Assembly (NCBI RefSeq): GCF_900168115.1
Contig: NZ_FUZC01000014.1
Span: 1 to 64,000, forward strand
Length of the DNA: 64,000 nt
Source of the DNA: Salegentibacter salinarum
Lineage (GTDB): Bacteria > Bacteroidota > Bacteroidia > Flavobacteriales > Flavobacteriaceae
Reading direction: 5' to 3'
Both the position numbers and the translations under genes were made by a program. Positions 2,821 to 63,854 of the stretch are shown here, one piece after another. The notes beneath the pieces are model-generated. The model was not told the origin of the DNA. It ran no database searches and saw only the letters and a list, made by a program, of their open reading frames with translations. Within the stretch, counting starts at the first letter, position 1; the number at the start of each line of letters is the position of its first letter.

Positions 2821-3111
2821 CTATTCTTCTAAATTATTCACCCCTGTATCAACCAACCTGAAATTTTCAACTTTTTTACCTTTTAAATGTTTGTTCCATT
2901 TTTCTATTAGTGGGGCTTCCAGTTTTAATTCCCGGTATTCGTCTGGATTCATAATTGGAATGCCCTTTATTATTGGATAAATACGTTTACATTTCTTACA
3001 ACTTAAAAAACCTTCTATAATTTTTCCTTCAATATCCTTTGAAATTGAAGTGAGTTCCAGGTCATTTTTATCAAAAGGGCAGCATAATTTATCTATTGTG
3101 GAAGTTCTCAT
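2821..3111 (-). CDS. Trm112-like zinc-ribbon protein
   Basis: A 96-residue protein of the Trm112 family. CCPFDKNDLEL at about residues 10-20 and CKKCKRIYPIIKGIPIM at about 38-54 give the Cys pairs of a small zinc ribbon and the conserved family signature. Trm112 proteins are known to bind and activate class I methyltransferases in eukaryotes and archaea. It is the last gene of the TPP-riboswitch operon and overlaps the ThiE-like gene by 23 nt. The first gene of that operon is a class I methyltransferase, so the two may be partners; that pairing is inference. Confidence 0.8.
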   Translation of the reverse strand: MRTSTIDKLCCPFDKNDLELTSISKDIEGKIIEGFLSCKKCKRIYPIIKGIPIMNPDEYRELKLEAPLIEKWNKHLKGKKVENFRLVDTGVNNLEE

Positions 3112-3757
3112 TTTTTATTTTTTTAAATTCTGAATTATAATTTTCTGCTGAAATTGAAGGATTTTCGGCATTCATTATTCCTGAGATCACCGCAACTCCT
3201 TCAAAATCTAATTCTTTAAGTAAGTGCATATTGGAAGGTTTAATTCCTCCCGCCAGGAAAATAGGCATTTCGGTAATTTTCCGGGCTTCCTTAATAATCT
3301 CAAAATCTACTAAGTCACAACTATTGGCGGTTGAAGAAGGAAAAATTGAACAAAATGAAATATAATCCAACTTATTGATCGCGGCCCATTTTACAGTCTC
3401 AAGGTTATTATTACAGGTTAATCCCATTAAAGCATTTGATGAAATGTTTTTTTTAATCTCTTTGAAATTACTTGGGATCTCATCAAAATGCACCCCATTT
3501 GCTTCAGTTTGATTTAAAAGATTCCCGTTATTATTCAGTAAAACCGGAACCTGGTAGTTTTTAAAAATTTTACAGATTTCATTTATAAGCGAAATTTGAT
3601 TCTCAATATTTTTAAAATTATCCCACACCTGGACCGCGGCAATTTCACTTATATCCACAATCTGCTTTAGTTTGCTTATTAAAACAGTTTTCTCCATTTG
3701 CGGATCTACAACGAGGTATACTCCTTCTTTTATTTGTGGCTTTTTTATCATTTCCAA
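3089..3757 (-). CDS. Divergent thiamine phosphate synthase (ThiE/TenI) family protein
   Basis: A 222-residue TIM-barrel protein of the TMP synthase/TenI family. It is recognised by GVHFDEIPSNF at about 90-100, the phosphate-loop motif LAGGIKPSNMHLL at about 170-182 and GVAVISGIM near 190. The canonical ThiE signature QLREK is replaced by VQVWDNF, and the Asp pair that helps bind diphosphate is replaced by Asn (LLNNNGNLL). It is therefore unlikely to be an ordinary ThiE; a TenI-like or new role is possible. It overlaps the AIR-synthase-like gene by 10 nt and the Trm112-like gene by 23 nt, so translation is probably coupled. The start could also be the Met two codons downstream. Regulation by the TPP riboswitch is expected. 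Confidence 0.72.
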   Translation of the reverse strand: MEMIKKPQIKEGVYLVVDPQMEKTVLISKLKQIVDISEIAAVQVWDNFKNIENQISLINEICKIFKNYQVPVLLNNNGNLLNQTEANGVHFDEIPSNFKEIKKNISSNALMGLTCNNNLETVKWAAINKLDYISFCSIFPSSTANSCDLVDFEIIKEARKITEMPIFLAGGIKPSNMHLLKELDFEGVAVISGIMNAENPSISAENYNSEFKKIKNENFHNR

Positions 3758-4806
3758 CCAGATTTAATCGCGGTAAAAAAGGCTTTCCAGTAAGGATCTT
3801 CGGTTTTATATTCTAAACTTTTAATCTTATCAGCCTTAGCGATCTTAACACCCTCTTCTTGAGCTTTAATTACTCCAACGGCTGTGCAATTAATATTTTC
3901 CGCTTTTAAACGAGAAATAACTTGTTCTTCTTTTCCCTTTTCACAGGATATTATCATTGAACCCGCGCCTATAATCTCCCTGTAATCCAGTTTAAAAAGT
4001 TTACAAACTTCTTTTTGCCACGAAGTTACCGGCAAAGCTTCGTCATAAATAAGGGCGCCTTTACCCGAAGCTTTAACCATTTCATATACTGCCCCAAGCA
4101 CACCACCTTCAGTAACATCGTGCATAGCGTGAATTTCCGGAAATTTATCCCCGGCTCCTACGGCTGCAAGTCCGTCTTTTAAAGAAGAGGTTTGCCAAAA
4201 CATTTCACAGCCTGTCTCATAGGTTTGTGGTCCTAATTTGTTTTTTATGGTTTCAGGAAAACTCATCGTTAATAATGCAGAAGAAGAAAGCGCACAGGTT
4301 TTGGTTACCAGAATTACATCATTTTCCTCTGCGCCATTAGAAAGAATAATCTCTTTCTTGGGAGCCACGCTAAAAAAAGTTCCCCCGCCCGAAATTGTTG
4401 AATTCTGACCTTCTACAAATCCGGTATGTCCACCGGTTATAGCCACTCCAATTTCTTTGCAGAATTGATGAATATAATTCCAGTAAGTTTTAAAATCTTC
4501 CCTGGAAAGTGATGCCGGTAAGTTTAGCACCATTTGTGCATATTGGGGTGCAAATCCGGTAGTTGCCATATCGTTGGCCATAAGATGTACCGAAAGCCAG
4601 GCAGATTCTTCTAAGCCGAGCGTGGGAATAAGCGACAATGGATCACTTGTGGATATTAAGGCTAAGTTATCTGGTAAATCTACTAATGAAACATCTACCC
4701 CAAACCCGGGTTTTGTGCTGACTTCCTTACGAGTATGCCCACAATTTTCCAGGATAAATCCTTCTAATTCTGCTTCGGCTATTTTTCCTAATTTTTCACC
4801 CATCAT
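3748..4806 (-). CDS. AIR synthase-related protein (PurM/HypE/ThiL fold)
   Basis: A 352-residue ATP-dependent fold protein of the PurM/ThiL/HypE/SelD superfamily. Visible motifs are the N-terminal STSDPLSLIP and HLMANDMATTGFAPQY, then GGHTGFVEG, SGGGTFF and the C-domain signature HDVTEGGVLGAVYEM. ThiL of this superfamily phosphorylates TMP to TPP, while HypE dehydrates a thiocarboxamide. Which reaction this member performs cannot be told from the sequence. The TPP riboswitch and the ThiE-like neighbour favour a thiamine-related substrate. It overlaps the methyltransferase stop by 4 nt (ATGA); a second Met follows immediately and could also be the start. Confidence 0.75.
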   Translation of the reverse strand: MMGEKLGKIAEAELEGFILENCGHTRKEVSTKPGFGVDVSLVDLPDNLALISTSDPLSLIPTLGLEESAWLSVHLMANDMATTGFAPQYAQMVLNLPASLSREDFKTYWNYIHQFCKEIGVAITGGHTGFVEGQNSTISGGGTFFSVAPKKEIILSNGAEENDVILVTKTCALSSSALLTMSFPETIKNKLGPQTYETGCEMFWQTSSLKDGLAAVGAGDKFPEIHAMHDVTEGGVLGAVYEMVKASGKGALIYDEALPVTSWQKEVCKLFKLDYREIIGAGSMIISCEKGKEEQVISRLKAENINCTAVGVIKAQEEGVKIAKADKIKSLEYKTEDPYWKAFFTAIKSGWK

Positions 4807-5528
4807 TTTACATCTTTAAATTCTACATACAACCCGAAAAAATCACCATATGGTAATCCCCATTGCTGAACCGGGAACCATTTTGGCAAGCCGGTGCATG
4901 ACCATTCTATACTATACTCCCGTCCCTGGAGGGCTTCCTCTATGATTTTAGTAAGTTTTTTAGGCGTATAAAAAGTGGCGGTAAGATAAAATGGGTTAGC
5001 GCCAAAAATTTCCTGGACCCGCCGACGAACTACTTTGGTAGAATTCCTGTTCATCATTCCCAGGGCTATACCGTATTTTCCAACCCTGGCTGCTTCGCGA
5101 ATAACTTTTACCGGATCTTTGTAATATTCAAAAGTGGTTATAAAAGCCAGTGAGTCAAAAGTATGATCTTTAAAAGGCATATAGTGAGAATCTGCCATGA
5201 CAAGATCTCCTTCAAATAAATGTACTGCCTGCGAAAGCATAAGTGGAGAGATATCGCCACCGGTAGCCTCGATTCCTATTTCTTTCCACCATCTTGTGAA
5301 GCGCGTGGTCCCACAACCAAACTCTAGCAAGGTTTTTACTCGTATATCTTTAGAAACAAGTTGTTCCATTACCTTTTTCTGCCAGACCTCGGCACGCTTG
5401 TAACGGCCTTCGTACCACTGCTCGTAGGTGTCTGTATGTTTGCGGTTAAAAAACCATTCTTCCCTGTTTTGCCAGTTCTGATGATTTACGGGGAGTAATT
5501 CAAATCGGCTGCTCTTTTCAATTTCCAT
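4803..5528 (-). CDS. Class I SAM-dependent methyltransferase, first gene of the TPP operon
   Basis: A 241-residue Rossmann-fold methyltransferase. The SAM motif LLEFGCGTTRFTRWW is at about 67-81, the acidic motif II region ATGGDIS follows, and MADSHYMPFKDHTFDSLAF is typical of the Methyltransf_11 group. The substrate is unknown. It is the promoter-proximal gene of the operon, about 13 nt from the terminator of the riboswitch. A Trm112-like protein is encoded at the other end of the operon and is a candidate activator. No transmembrane segment or signal peptide is seen, so it should act in the cytoplasm. Confidence 0.82.
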   Translation of the reverse strand: MEIEKSSRFELLPVNHQNWQNREEWFFNRKHTDTYEQWYEGRYKRAEVWQKKVMEQLVSKDIRVKTLLEFGCGTTRFTRWWKEIGIEATGGDISPLMLSQAVHLFEGDLVMADSHYMPFKDHTFDSLAFITTFEYYKDPVKVIREAARVGKYGIALGMMNRNSTKVVRRRVQEIFGANPFYLTATFYTPKKLTKIIEEALQGREYSIEWSCTGLPKWFPVQQWGLPYGDFFGLYVEFKDVK

Positions 5529-5540
5529 CTTTATTTTTTA

Positions 5541-5587
5541 AAAAAGAAAAACTCCACGCTACCCGGAAAATGCCGAAAACATGGAGT
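5541..5587 (-). terminator. Intrinsic terminator serving as TPP riboswitch expression platform
   Basis: On the minus strand, ACTCCATG pairs with CGTGGAGT (one G-U pair) around a loop that itself can form CGG/CCG. A T-rich tract follows. It lies between the TPP aptamer and the methyltransferase start, so TPP binding probably favours this terminator. Confidence 0.8.
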
Positions 5588-5605
5588 CTTAAAATGGAAA
5601 TTTTA

Positions 5606-5685
5606 ATCCTGCATCCCTACGTTGGCATTATCCAAATCAGGTTTTCGGGTGTTATCTCAGCCTTGCGGCACCCCGTGCGTGAGTT
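5606..5685 (-). promoter_or_regulatory. TPP riboswitch (THI element)
   Basis: The minus strand contains the invariant blocks of the aptamer in order: ACGGGGTGCC, CTGAGATAACACCC, ACCTGATTTGGATAATGCCA and GCGTAGGGA. This is an essentially textbook THI element of about 80 nt. It stands directly upstream of the four-gene operon 5528-2821 and is followed by an intrinsic terminator, which implies repression at high TPP. Confidence 0.97.
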
Positions 5686-63523: not shown

Positions 63524-63531
63524 TATCTTTG
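63524..63531 (+). promoter_or_regulatory. -7 box of rpsO
   Basis: TATCTTTG fits TAnnTTTG and would place the transcription start near 63536-63538, with a leader of about 50 nt. Confidence 0.65.
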
Positions 63532-63536
63532 CCGCC

Positions 63537-63553
63537 TGACAGAAAAACTGTCA
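63537..63553 (+). promoter_or_regulatory. Hairpin at the 5' end of the rpsO leader
   Basis: TGACAG and CTGTCA form a perfect 6-bp stem with an AAAAA loop. It would be at the very 5' end of the mRNA and could protect it or take part in S15 autoregulation; neither is shown. Confidence 0.5.
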
Positions 63554-63584
63554 ATACATAAAAATCATTAAAATTAATATTGGA

Positions 63585-63854
63585 ATGTATTTAGCCAAAG
63601 AAAGAAAAGAAGAAATTTTTGAGAAGCACGGAAAGAGCAAAACCGACACCGGTTCTGCTGAAGGACAAATTGCTTTGTTCACCTACCGAATCTCTCACCT
63701 TTCTGATCACTTAAAAAAGAATCGTAAAGACTACAACTCAGAGCGTTCTTTGGTAATGTTGGTTGGTAAAAGAAGGAGCTTACTTGATTACTTAATGAAG
63801 AAAGATATTATGAGATATCGTGCTATCGTAAAAGAATTAGGATTAAGAAAATAA
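63585..63854 (+). CDS. rpsO: 30S ribosomal protein S15
   Basis: Binds 16S rRNA and helps assemble the central domain of the small subunit. The 89-residue protein has the classic landmarks KSKTDTGSAEGQIALFTYRI, HLKKNRKDYNSERSL and LVGKRRSLLDYL. It has its own promoter, a leader hairpin and a strong terminator. In many bacteria pnp follows; here that would be outside the window. Confidence 0.98.
   Translation: MYLAKERKEEIFEKHGKSKTDTGSAEGQIALFTYRISHLSDHLKKNRKDYNSERSLVMLVGKRRSLLDYLMKKDIMRYRAIVKELGLRK

Follow-up and report, generated by a model that had tools for sequence, protein, structure and literature searches.

In Bacteroidota, thiamin pyrophosphate (TPP) aptamers stand ahead of tight vitamin B1 operons, such as thiSEGCHF-tenI, OMthi and pnuT-tnr3 of B. 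thetaiotaomicron, as described in the available part of PMC5613172. We analyzed a stretch of 64,000 nucleotides of Salegentibacter salinarum (contig NZ_FUZC01000014.1, positions 1 to 64,000, here referred to as the window), in which a TPP aptamer precedes four overlapping minus-strand genes encoding a methyltransferase (MT), an AIR-synthase-superfamily protein (AIRS-like), a ThiE-like barrel and a Trm112-like protein. This cassette shares with the above operons the aptamer ahead of a tight operon and a ThiE/TenI-fold protein, but it contains no thiC, thiG, thiD or transporter gene and has the MT, AIRS-like and Trm112-like genes instead. The bacimethrin/thiaminase I operon, in the available part of PMC5627462, also combines putative TPP control with an S-adenosylmethionine (SAM) methyltransferase, but its partner genes differ, and neither a thymidylate-synthase-like gene nor a thiaminase is among our four. 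Moreover, the Trm112-methyltransferase complexes (Haloferax Hvo_0019-Trm112, 6f5z, and BUD23-TRMT112) have homologues of both partners in the cassette; here, however, the pair is encoded together under a TPP switch.

The unit consists of four genes only, with no ThiC, ThiG, ThiD or true ThiE, and is thus no canonical thiamin operon; it fits none of the vitamin B1 pathways compared with it. In a survey of TPP regulons, as far as its accessible part goes, the Bacteroidetes table names Bacteroidaceae and the main text does not contain the word "methyltransferase" (PMC3766115). A literature search over titles and the beginnings of abstracts, with most subscription journals outside its scope, returned no paper assigning the four genes; the listed papers that combine two of Trm112, thiamin, AIR synthase and UPF0434 concern, by these excerpts, tRNA modification, yeast or other subjects rather than the cassette. 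We read the cassette, tentatively and with a probability of about 0.42, as a self-contained, apparently transferred unit for thiamin starvation that would salvage or repair a thiamin-related phosphate.

The aptamer (window 5685–5597, minus strand) matches RF00059 with 63.6 bits in cmscan, above the gathering score of 54.3, and with an E-value of 3.7e-10 when the window is searched. It is followed, just 5' of the first gene, by an expression platform made of a terminator hairpin and a U-run (5592–5535, minus strand), with a minimum free energy of −21.1 kcal/mol and a z of −5.2, and none of 200 shuffles equals its stability. A simple terminator scan of the window, which found 4 sites against a shuffle mean of 3.3, did not list this hairpin, perhaps due to the bulge in its stem. 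All four genes are on the minus strand, and each overlaps its successor (window 5528–2821). The first (5528–4803) encodes a class I SAM methyltransferase of 241 amino acids (Pfam PF08241, Methyltransf_11, 5.9e-16), and the second (4806–3748, with possible ATG starts at 4803 and 4806) a 351-amino-acid protein of the AIR-synthase superfamily with the HypE/SelD/ThiL/PurM fold (PF00586, AIRS, and PF02769, AIRS_C). The third (3751–3089, with an alternative TTG start possible upstream at 3757) encodes a TIM barrel of the ThiE/TenI fold with 220 amino acids (PF02581, TMP-TENI, 4.9e-29), and the fourth (3111–2821) a Trm112-like zinc-knuckle protein of 96 amino acids (PF03966, Trm112p, 1.5e-8). The Pfam superfamily matches of all four proteins exceed the curated cut-offs, and in the NCBIfam search none of them reaches a family cut-off. 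The genome (handle G000) comprises 4.3 Mb in 40 contigs, and its AIRS-like protein is 90% identical to that of S. agarivorans and 88% to that of S. lacus.

We then examined 91 loci, of which 80 come from named genomes, as the best of 555 relatives found there for the AIRS-like protein, and 11 from searches of genome samples; as the 80 named loci are the best-scoring relatives, counts on the 91 favour near relatives. Three of the loci repeat a genome (88 are distinct) and were dropped from later alignments. Alignment A2 comprises the window and 63 loci, A3 the window and 49 loci, and the pairwise identity set the window and 85 loci (86 rows). MT and the AIRS-like gene are present in all 91 loci, and the four genes stand in one order on one strand in 88 of them, the contig ending after the AIRS-like gene in the other 3. 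Both the aptamer with its terminator (63.6 bits, z −5.2) and the single unit formed by the overlapping genes (coordinates, and the fixed order in 88/91 loci) are therefore as the first-pass annotation had them. All 91 loci have a TPP aptamer ahead of MT (8/8 by Rfam, 84/84 by a custom model, R1, built from nine cassette aptamers; L053 was examined in both ways and also contributed to the model). Aptamer and MT are separated by a median of 62 nucleotides, and eight of the distances are negative, probably from over-long start calls. Chance or misannotation of the operon is ruled out by this conservation of order and aptamer, and the four genes do not occur mostly without a TPP riboswitch beside unrelated pathways: no locus of the 91 is without an aptamer, and no pathway neighbour is conserved. 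In fact, a survey of up to 8 open reading frames on each side, fewer at contig ends, found no conserved fifth gene, the best neighbour cluster being present in 12 of the 91 loci, where its position varies and it lies on either strand.

Across the 84 loci, the custom model has only two further matches. A second TPP-like match (47 bits, model R1) lies immediately after the cassette of a Christiangramia locus, on the other strand (L098:10098-10189, minus strand). A further weak AIRS homologue (E = 1.6e-5) is found directly behind the cassette in a metagenome-assembled genome of Balneolales (L104:10239-11243, plus strand), a locus counted among the 88 with all four genes in order. In an Arenibacter genome, two complete cassettes are separated by about 32 kb (L182:3033-5730 and L183:15167-17864).

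In a sample of 296 genomes of the phylum, the AIRS-like protein is found in 11, the window's own included, at E ≤ 1e-20, and the MT profile matches the same 11 at E ≤ 1e-40, so that neither occurs without the other in this sample. In the window's own family, a strong AIRS match occurs in 2 of 60 genomes (G000 and G022), and 28 others have weak ones with E of 4e-9 or worse. We built a quick tree of the four concatenated proteins (LG+G4, without bootstrap; 86 rows, 81 with an order label and 5 unlabelled), in which we assigned order labels from genus names and, for nameless genomes, through the family code f23, which genome G229 shares with a named Balneolaceae locus. The order labels need 19 changes on this tree, the minimum possible being 5 and the mean for shuffled labels 45.6, which means that there is also much vertical signal. 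Taken by themselves, the starred branches of the tree already require 7 changes in Cytophagales, 5 in Flavobacteriales and 4 in Sphingobacteriales. One close pair across orders joins Pedobacter chinensis with Ferruginibacter paludis, and Algoriphagus alkaliphilus groups with Arenibacter, which itself holds two distant cassette types. The simplest reading of this mixing suggests horizontal transfer of the cassette between orders.

As to the vehicle, a phage origin was rejected, with only one weak viral match (35% over query residues 90–150), and so was a plasmid origin, with relatives that reach 30% (AIRS) and 34% (MT) identity among the matches listed (40 of 60 in one search and all 10 in another). 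Phage and defence libraries gave generic matches only (phrog_22502, a methyltransferase; phrog_36592, unknown; mad2, 1.1e-5 for MT). We read ten plasmid neighbourhoods, seven of AIRS matches, two of MT and one of ThiE. The AIRS homologues on three Haloarcula plasmids adjoin genes of thiamine-binding proteins, another three AIRS matches lie away from any thiamin gene, and the neighbourhood of the seventh carries no annotation. The neighbourhoods of the two MT matches contain no thiamin gene, and the ThiE match sits in an ordinary thiC-thiD-thiM-thiE cluster.

Among the four proteins MT is the most constrained. Over 3655 pairs from 86 rows, the median identity is 75% for MT, 55% for AIRS, 43% for the barrel and 51% for the Trm112-like protein; MT exceeds both AIRS and the barrel in all 3655 pairs, and 120 of its 241 columns are at least 95% conserved in 89 sequences. 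The ClpP of the window was dropped as a conservation yardstick since its paralogues mix, and the four genes were compared among themselves instead. Four-fold degenerate sites of MT agree in only 28–39% in seven checked pairs, so the constraint acts on the protein and is not a sign of recent copying. The pairwise distances correlate best between MT and the Trm112-like protein (0.80) and between AIRS and the barrel (0.77), with 0.51–0.72 for the remaining pairs, and this correlated divergence suggests two functional pairs, MT with Trm112 and AIRS with the barrel. The MT profile matches an 18S rRNA guanine-N7 methyltransferase (3.6e-6), which we take to be BUD23, and, behind other methyltransferases, the Trm112-bound Hvo_0019 (6f5z_A, 0.0015); chains 6f5z_A and 6f5z_B rank 5–6 in Foldseek. 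The predicted model of MT is only moderate (predicted local distance difference test, pLDDT, of 78.3, weak N-terminus), and for this reason its active site was left uninterpreted. The Trm112-like protein matches 6zxw_H (1.3e-7) and 6f5z_C, the chain of the Haloferax complex (1.9e-6), in PDB; it exceeds the gathering score of PF03966 (34.9 bits against 22) and stays below the archaeal Trm112 equivalog NF038101 (62.8 against 77 bits). From the homology to both 6f5z chains and the correlated divergence, MT is probably the partner of the Trm112-like protein. The function of bacterial Trm112 was called unknown in a 2017 review, in the part available (PMC5372719).

In a first alternative, MT and Trm112 would respond to thiamin starvation by methylating a macromolecule, be it an RNA (tRNA or rRNA) or a protein (a release factor or TPP enzyme), and the other two proteins would make or modify the attached group. 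The Trm112 partners described in that part of the review act on tRNA, rRNA or eRF1 (PMC5372719), the profile matches of MT include the 18S rRNA methyltransferase and Hvo_0019, and the very high constraint on MT would suit a large substrate surface. However, a unit found in 11 of 296 genomes of the phylum, with a tree that mixes orders, fits core translation poorly, and the ThiE-fold partner together with the TPP switch in 91/91 loci points to thiamin; we consider this explanation unlikely.

Second, the cassette might make a modified thiamin or an antivitamin, as the bacimethrin operon does. In paenibacilli, according to the available part of PMC5627462, a putatively TPP-led operon joins a SAM methyltransferase with thiM, thiD, thiE and thiaminase I. 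Against this, the four genes include no thymidylate-synthase-like enzyme, deoxyribosyltransferase or thiaminase, and since no fifth gene is conserved beside them, neither is an export or resistance gene. These three enzymes, which accompany the methyltransferase in the bacimethrin operon, were found neither among the four families nor as conserved neighbours, thiaminase not having been searched genome-wide, and we regard such a product as improbable.

We further compared 40 cassette-bearing genomes of our choice with 40 cassette-free ones (taken from the phylum sample at every fifth handle, G151 excepted) for seven protein families and RF00059. ThiC was found in 5 of the 40 bearing genomes and 13 of the 40 cassette-free ones, ThiG above 300 bits in 4 and 14, ThiD above 100 bits in 6 and 14, TenA in 0 and 4, ThiL over its cut-off in 40 and 30, and TPK in 16 and 20, respectively. 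As families are unevenly represented, the differences in ThiC, ThiL and TPK between the groups are not read as causal. A second TMP-TENI match above 60 bits occurs in 9 of the 40 bearing genomes (that of G377 is partial, and that of G357 looks diverged at the same motifs as the cassette barrel); weaker or partial matches of 20–44 bits were set aside. With 35 of 40 lacking ThiC, the cassette sits mostly in predicted thiamin auxotrophs, and because the route through hydroxymethylpyrimidine (HMP) diphosphate is absent in most carriers, the cassette is independent of that route and cannot be feeding it there. ThiL over its cut-off, with no TPK and no TMP-TENI match over the cut-off besides that of the cassette, was observed in 15 of the 40 bearing and 7 of the 40 cassette-free genomes.

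A third alternative is that the cassette replaces ThiG/ThiH or ThiC and supplies the thiazole or the pyrimidine half of thiamin by another route. In its favour, the cassette genome G359 (that of L064) encodes ThiC and ThiD and has a ThiE-family protein scoring 154 bits, and no ThiG above 300 bits. It is, however, a single genome, and 31 of the 40 carriers have no other TMP-TENI match above 60 bits and 34 of 40 no ThiD above 100 bits, so a free precursor would not be coupled there in the known way; we judge this route about as improbable as the antivitamin.

The window's own genome differs from most carriers in that a canonical TPP-led operon lies on another contig (L174), with thiC, a TenI-like gene, thiD, thiE and thiG, as well as genes that we read from translation as thiS, thiH and thiF; its ThiL is located elsewhere (310.5 bits). 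Hence the first-pass annotation was right that thiC, thiG, thiS, thiH and thiD are missing from the operon itself, which the 91 loci likewise present as one TPP-controlled unit apart from the standard thiamin pathway, but the absence is not a property of this genome. At least 2 TPP matches at E ≤ 0.001 were found in all 40 bearing genomes, some of them under the gathering score. In 10 of 11 cassette genomes examined, the gene downstream of the second match is large and was read as encoding a TonB-dependent receptor of OMthi type, a reading checked by Pfam on the receptor of the window's genome only; the eleventh (L190, with a TPP match of 41.9 bits) has no such gene downstream. At L176:1263-2285 and L186:5776-6888, TPP-controlled genes of pnuT-like transporters are followed by a protein with weak matches to the acyl-CoA-dehydrogenase superfamily, an odd member for a thiamin regulon. 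Another aptamer of 74 bits (G000:C35:158193-158279, equal to L173:9694-9780, minus strand) is followed by what we read as a terminator-like hairpin. On its strand no large gene follows closely, and it lies between a gene that we read as murB and a convergent fasciclin-domain gene; S. agarivorans (L177) shows the same arrangement, which thus occurs in two Salegentibacter and may be an orphan switch or a small RNA.

The AIRS-like protein shares both the N and C domains of HypE, SelD, ThiL and PurM, and its profile is nearest in PDB to HypE (1e-16), followed by ThiL (1.6e-11), with SelD and PurM behind. It is nevertheless below every equivalog cut-off, with 69.6 against 251.6 bits for HypE (TIGR02124), 66.2 against 184.15 for ThiL (TIGR01379) and 55.1 against 125 for SelD (TIGR00476), and below that of PurM too, and a separate ThiL is present besides. 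HypE has a C-terminal cysteine, which the cassette protein lacks. Several acidic positions align with those kept in ThiL, and GGHT, presumably the motif of SelD, stands where ThiL has GGDT. Enzymes of this superfamily phosphorylate an amide oxygen, selenide or a phosphate, and the AIRS-like protein is presumably ATP-dependent.

The barrel (AlphaFold2 model with pLDDT of 95.4) finds ThiE best in Foldseek (4.4e-14), with a ThiE-carboxythiazole-phosphate complex and TenI among the top matches, but it scores below both families (96.1 against 145.1 bits for ThiE, TIGR00693; 51.3 against 251 bits for TenI, NF005819). Compared with canonical Bacteroidota ThiE and TenI, it keeps the GGI and ISGI-type motifs, which are taken as the phosphate end of the site. 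In all 14 rows compared it has lost QxRxK, GQxD and the TxTK lysine, and 13 of them also lack the ND aspartate; the comparison further drew on a 64-row profile aligned to B. subtilis ThiE. We take these four motifs to be the HMP-diphosphate and Mg residues of ThiE; K159 of ThiE is named in the title of PDB 3o16. A Q-x-W and an FPSxTxxSC stand in place of QxRxK and the TxTK lysine, and the 64 aligned sequences all share W43, C134 and C145, with F89 and D90 at least 90% conserved. If the barrel and AIRS were simply a divergent pair of thiamin monophosphate (TMP) synthase (ThiE) and TMP kinase (ThiL), the other two genes would be passengers. Both proteins lie in the right superfamilies, but this reading is very improbable, because the barrel has lost the HMP-diphosphate motifs, both proteins score far below the ThiE and ThiL cut-offs, a separate ThiL over the cut-off is present in 40/40 cassette genomes, and by median identity the strongest constraint of the four falls on MT, which would be one of the passengers.

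The salvage or repair of a thiamin-related phosphate is reached as follows. First, the TPP switch and the ThiE-fold barrel place the unit in thiamin metabolism. Second, carriers that are predicted auxotrophs without the coupling enzymes argue against the supply of free thiazole or pyrimidine. Third, expression is expected at low TPP, as in the riboswitch family, which argues against thiamin breakdown. With free-precursor supply and breakdown both disfavoured, recovery of such a phosphate is the best reading. At low TPP, transcription would read through the terminator and the four proteins would be made, which together would act on a compound with a phosphorylated thiazole or on a molecule like thiamin phosphate. 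The MT and Trm112-like proteins would form a heterodimer that methylates this compound or an intermediate, the AIRS-like protein would spend ATP to phosphorylate or activate a heteroatom, and the barrel would hold the phosphate end and carry out bond chemistry through its invariant cysteines. The outcome would be usable thiamin phosphate in cells mostly unable to make thiamin. In one concrete version, a ring-opened or oxidised thiamin phosphate would be re-closed by a PurM-like ATP activation of the formamide oxygen. The substrates that PurM closes to an azole are of the same class as ring-opened thiamin, which is a formamide bearing a thiol, and this likeness makes ring repair a concrete possibility. 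The weakest link of the mechanism is the step where the methyl enters.

Several observations weigh against recovery of a thiamin phosphate or against parts of it. In profile and fold searches alike, MT is matched best by methyltransferases that are not known to bind Trm112 (1vlm, 3l8d, 2gs9 and others), and the Trm112 partners described in the available part of PMC5372719 act on RNA or protein, not on vitamins. The mixing of orders in the tree, read here on its own, might also reflect old duplications with losses. The Haloarcula link comes from three closely related plasmids, and three other plasmid AIRS homologues have no thiamin genes nearby. The absence of ThiC is not specific, as 27 of the 40 cassette-free genomes lack it too, in a comparison confounded by family make-up, and ThiL, present in 30 of these 40, persists without a visible source of TMP and so does not tie the cassette to TMP. 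Finally, in the window's own genome salvage cannot be the only source of thiamin, since the canonical pathway is present.

Elsewhere in the window, a group II intron domain (RF02001, 153 bits) is located at 64–237 on the minus strand, at the very end of the contig, where the assembly perhaps broke on a repeat, and an S15-Flavobacteria ribosomal protein leader (RF03161) at 63524–63587.

The cassette is thus a variant of the TPP-controlled vitamin operons, and its chemistry may be new. A more far-reaching claim, that its four proteins form a novel route which turns a compound beyond the reach of all known enzyme sets into thiamin phosphate, in bacteria without ThiC, ThiD, ThiE or TenA, is doubtful at present. 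If true, a role would for the first time be assigned to a bacterial Trm112, and the route would involve an MT so constrained as to be perhaps more than an ordinary turnover enzyme. In any case, a TPP-switched set to which no function is assigned is found repeatedly in Bacteroidota and Balneolota, most of the genomes concerned lacking thiamin biosynthesis, and a candidate partner and pathway can be named for bacterial Trm112. The set makes a missing piece of vitamin B1 metabolism directly testable. Compact and self-regulated, the cassette can be transferred whole to a laboratory test host.

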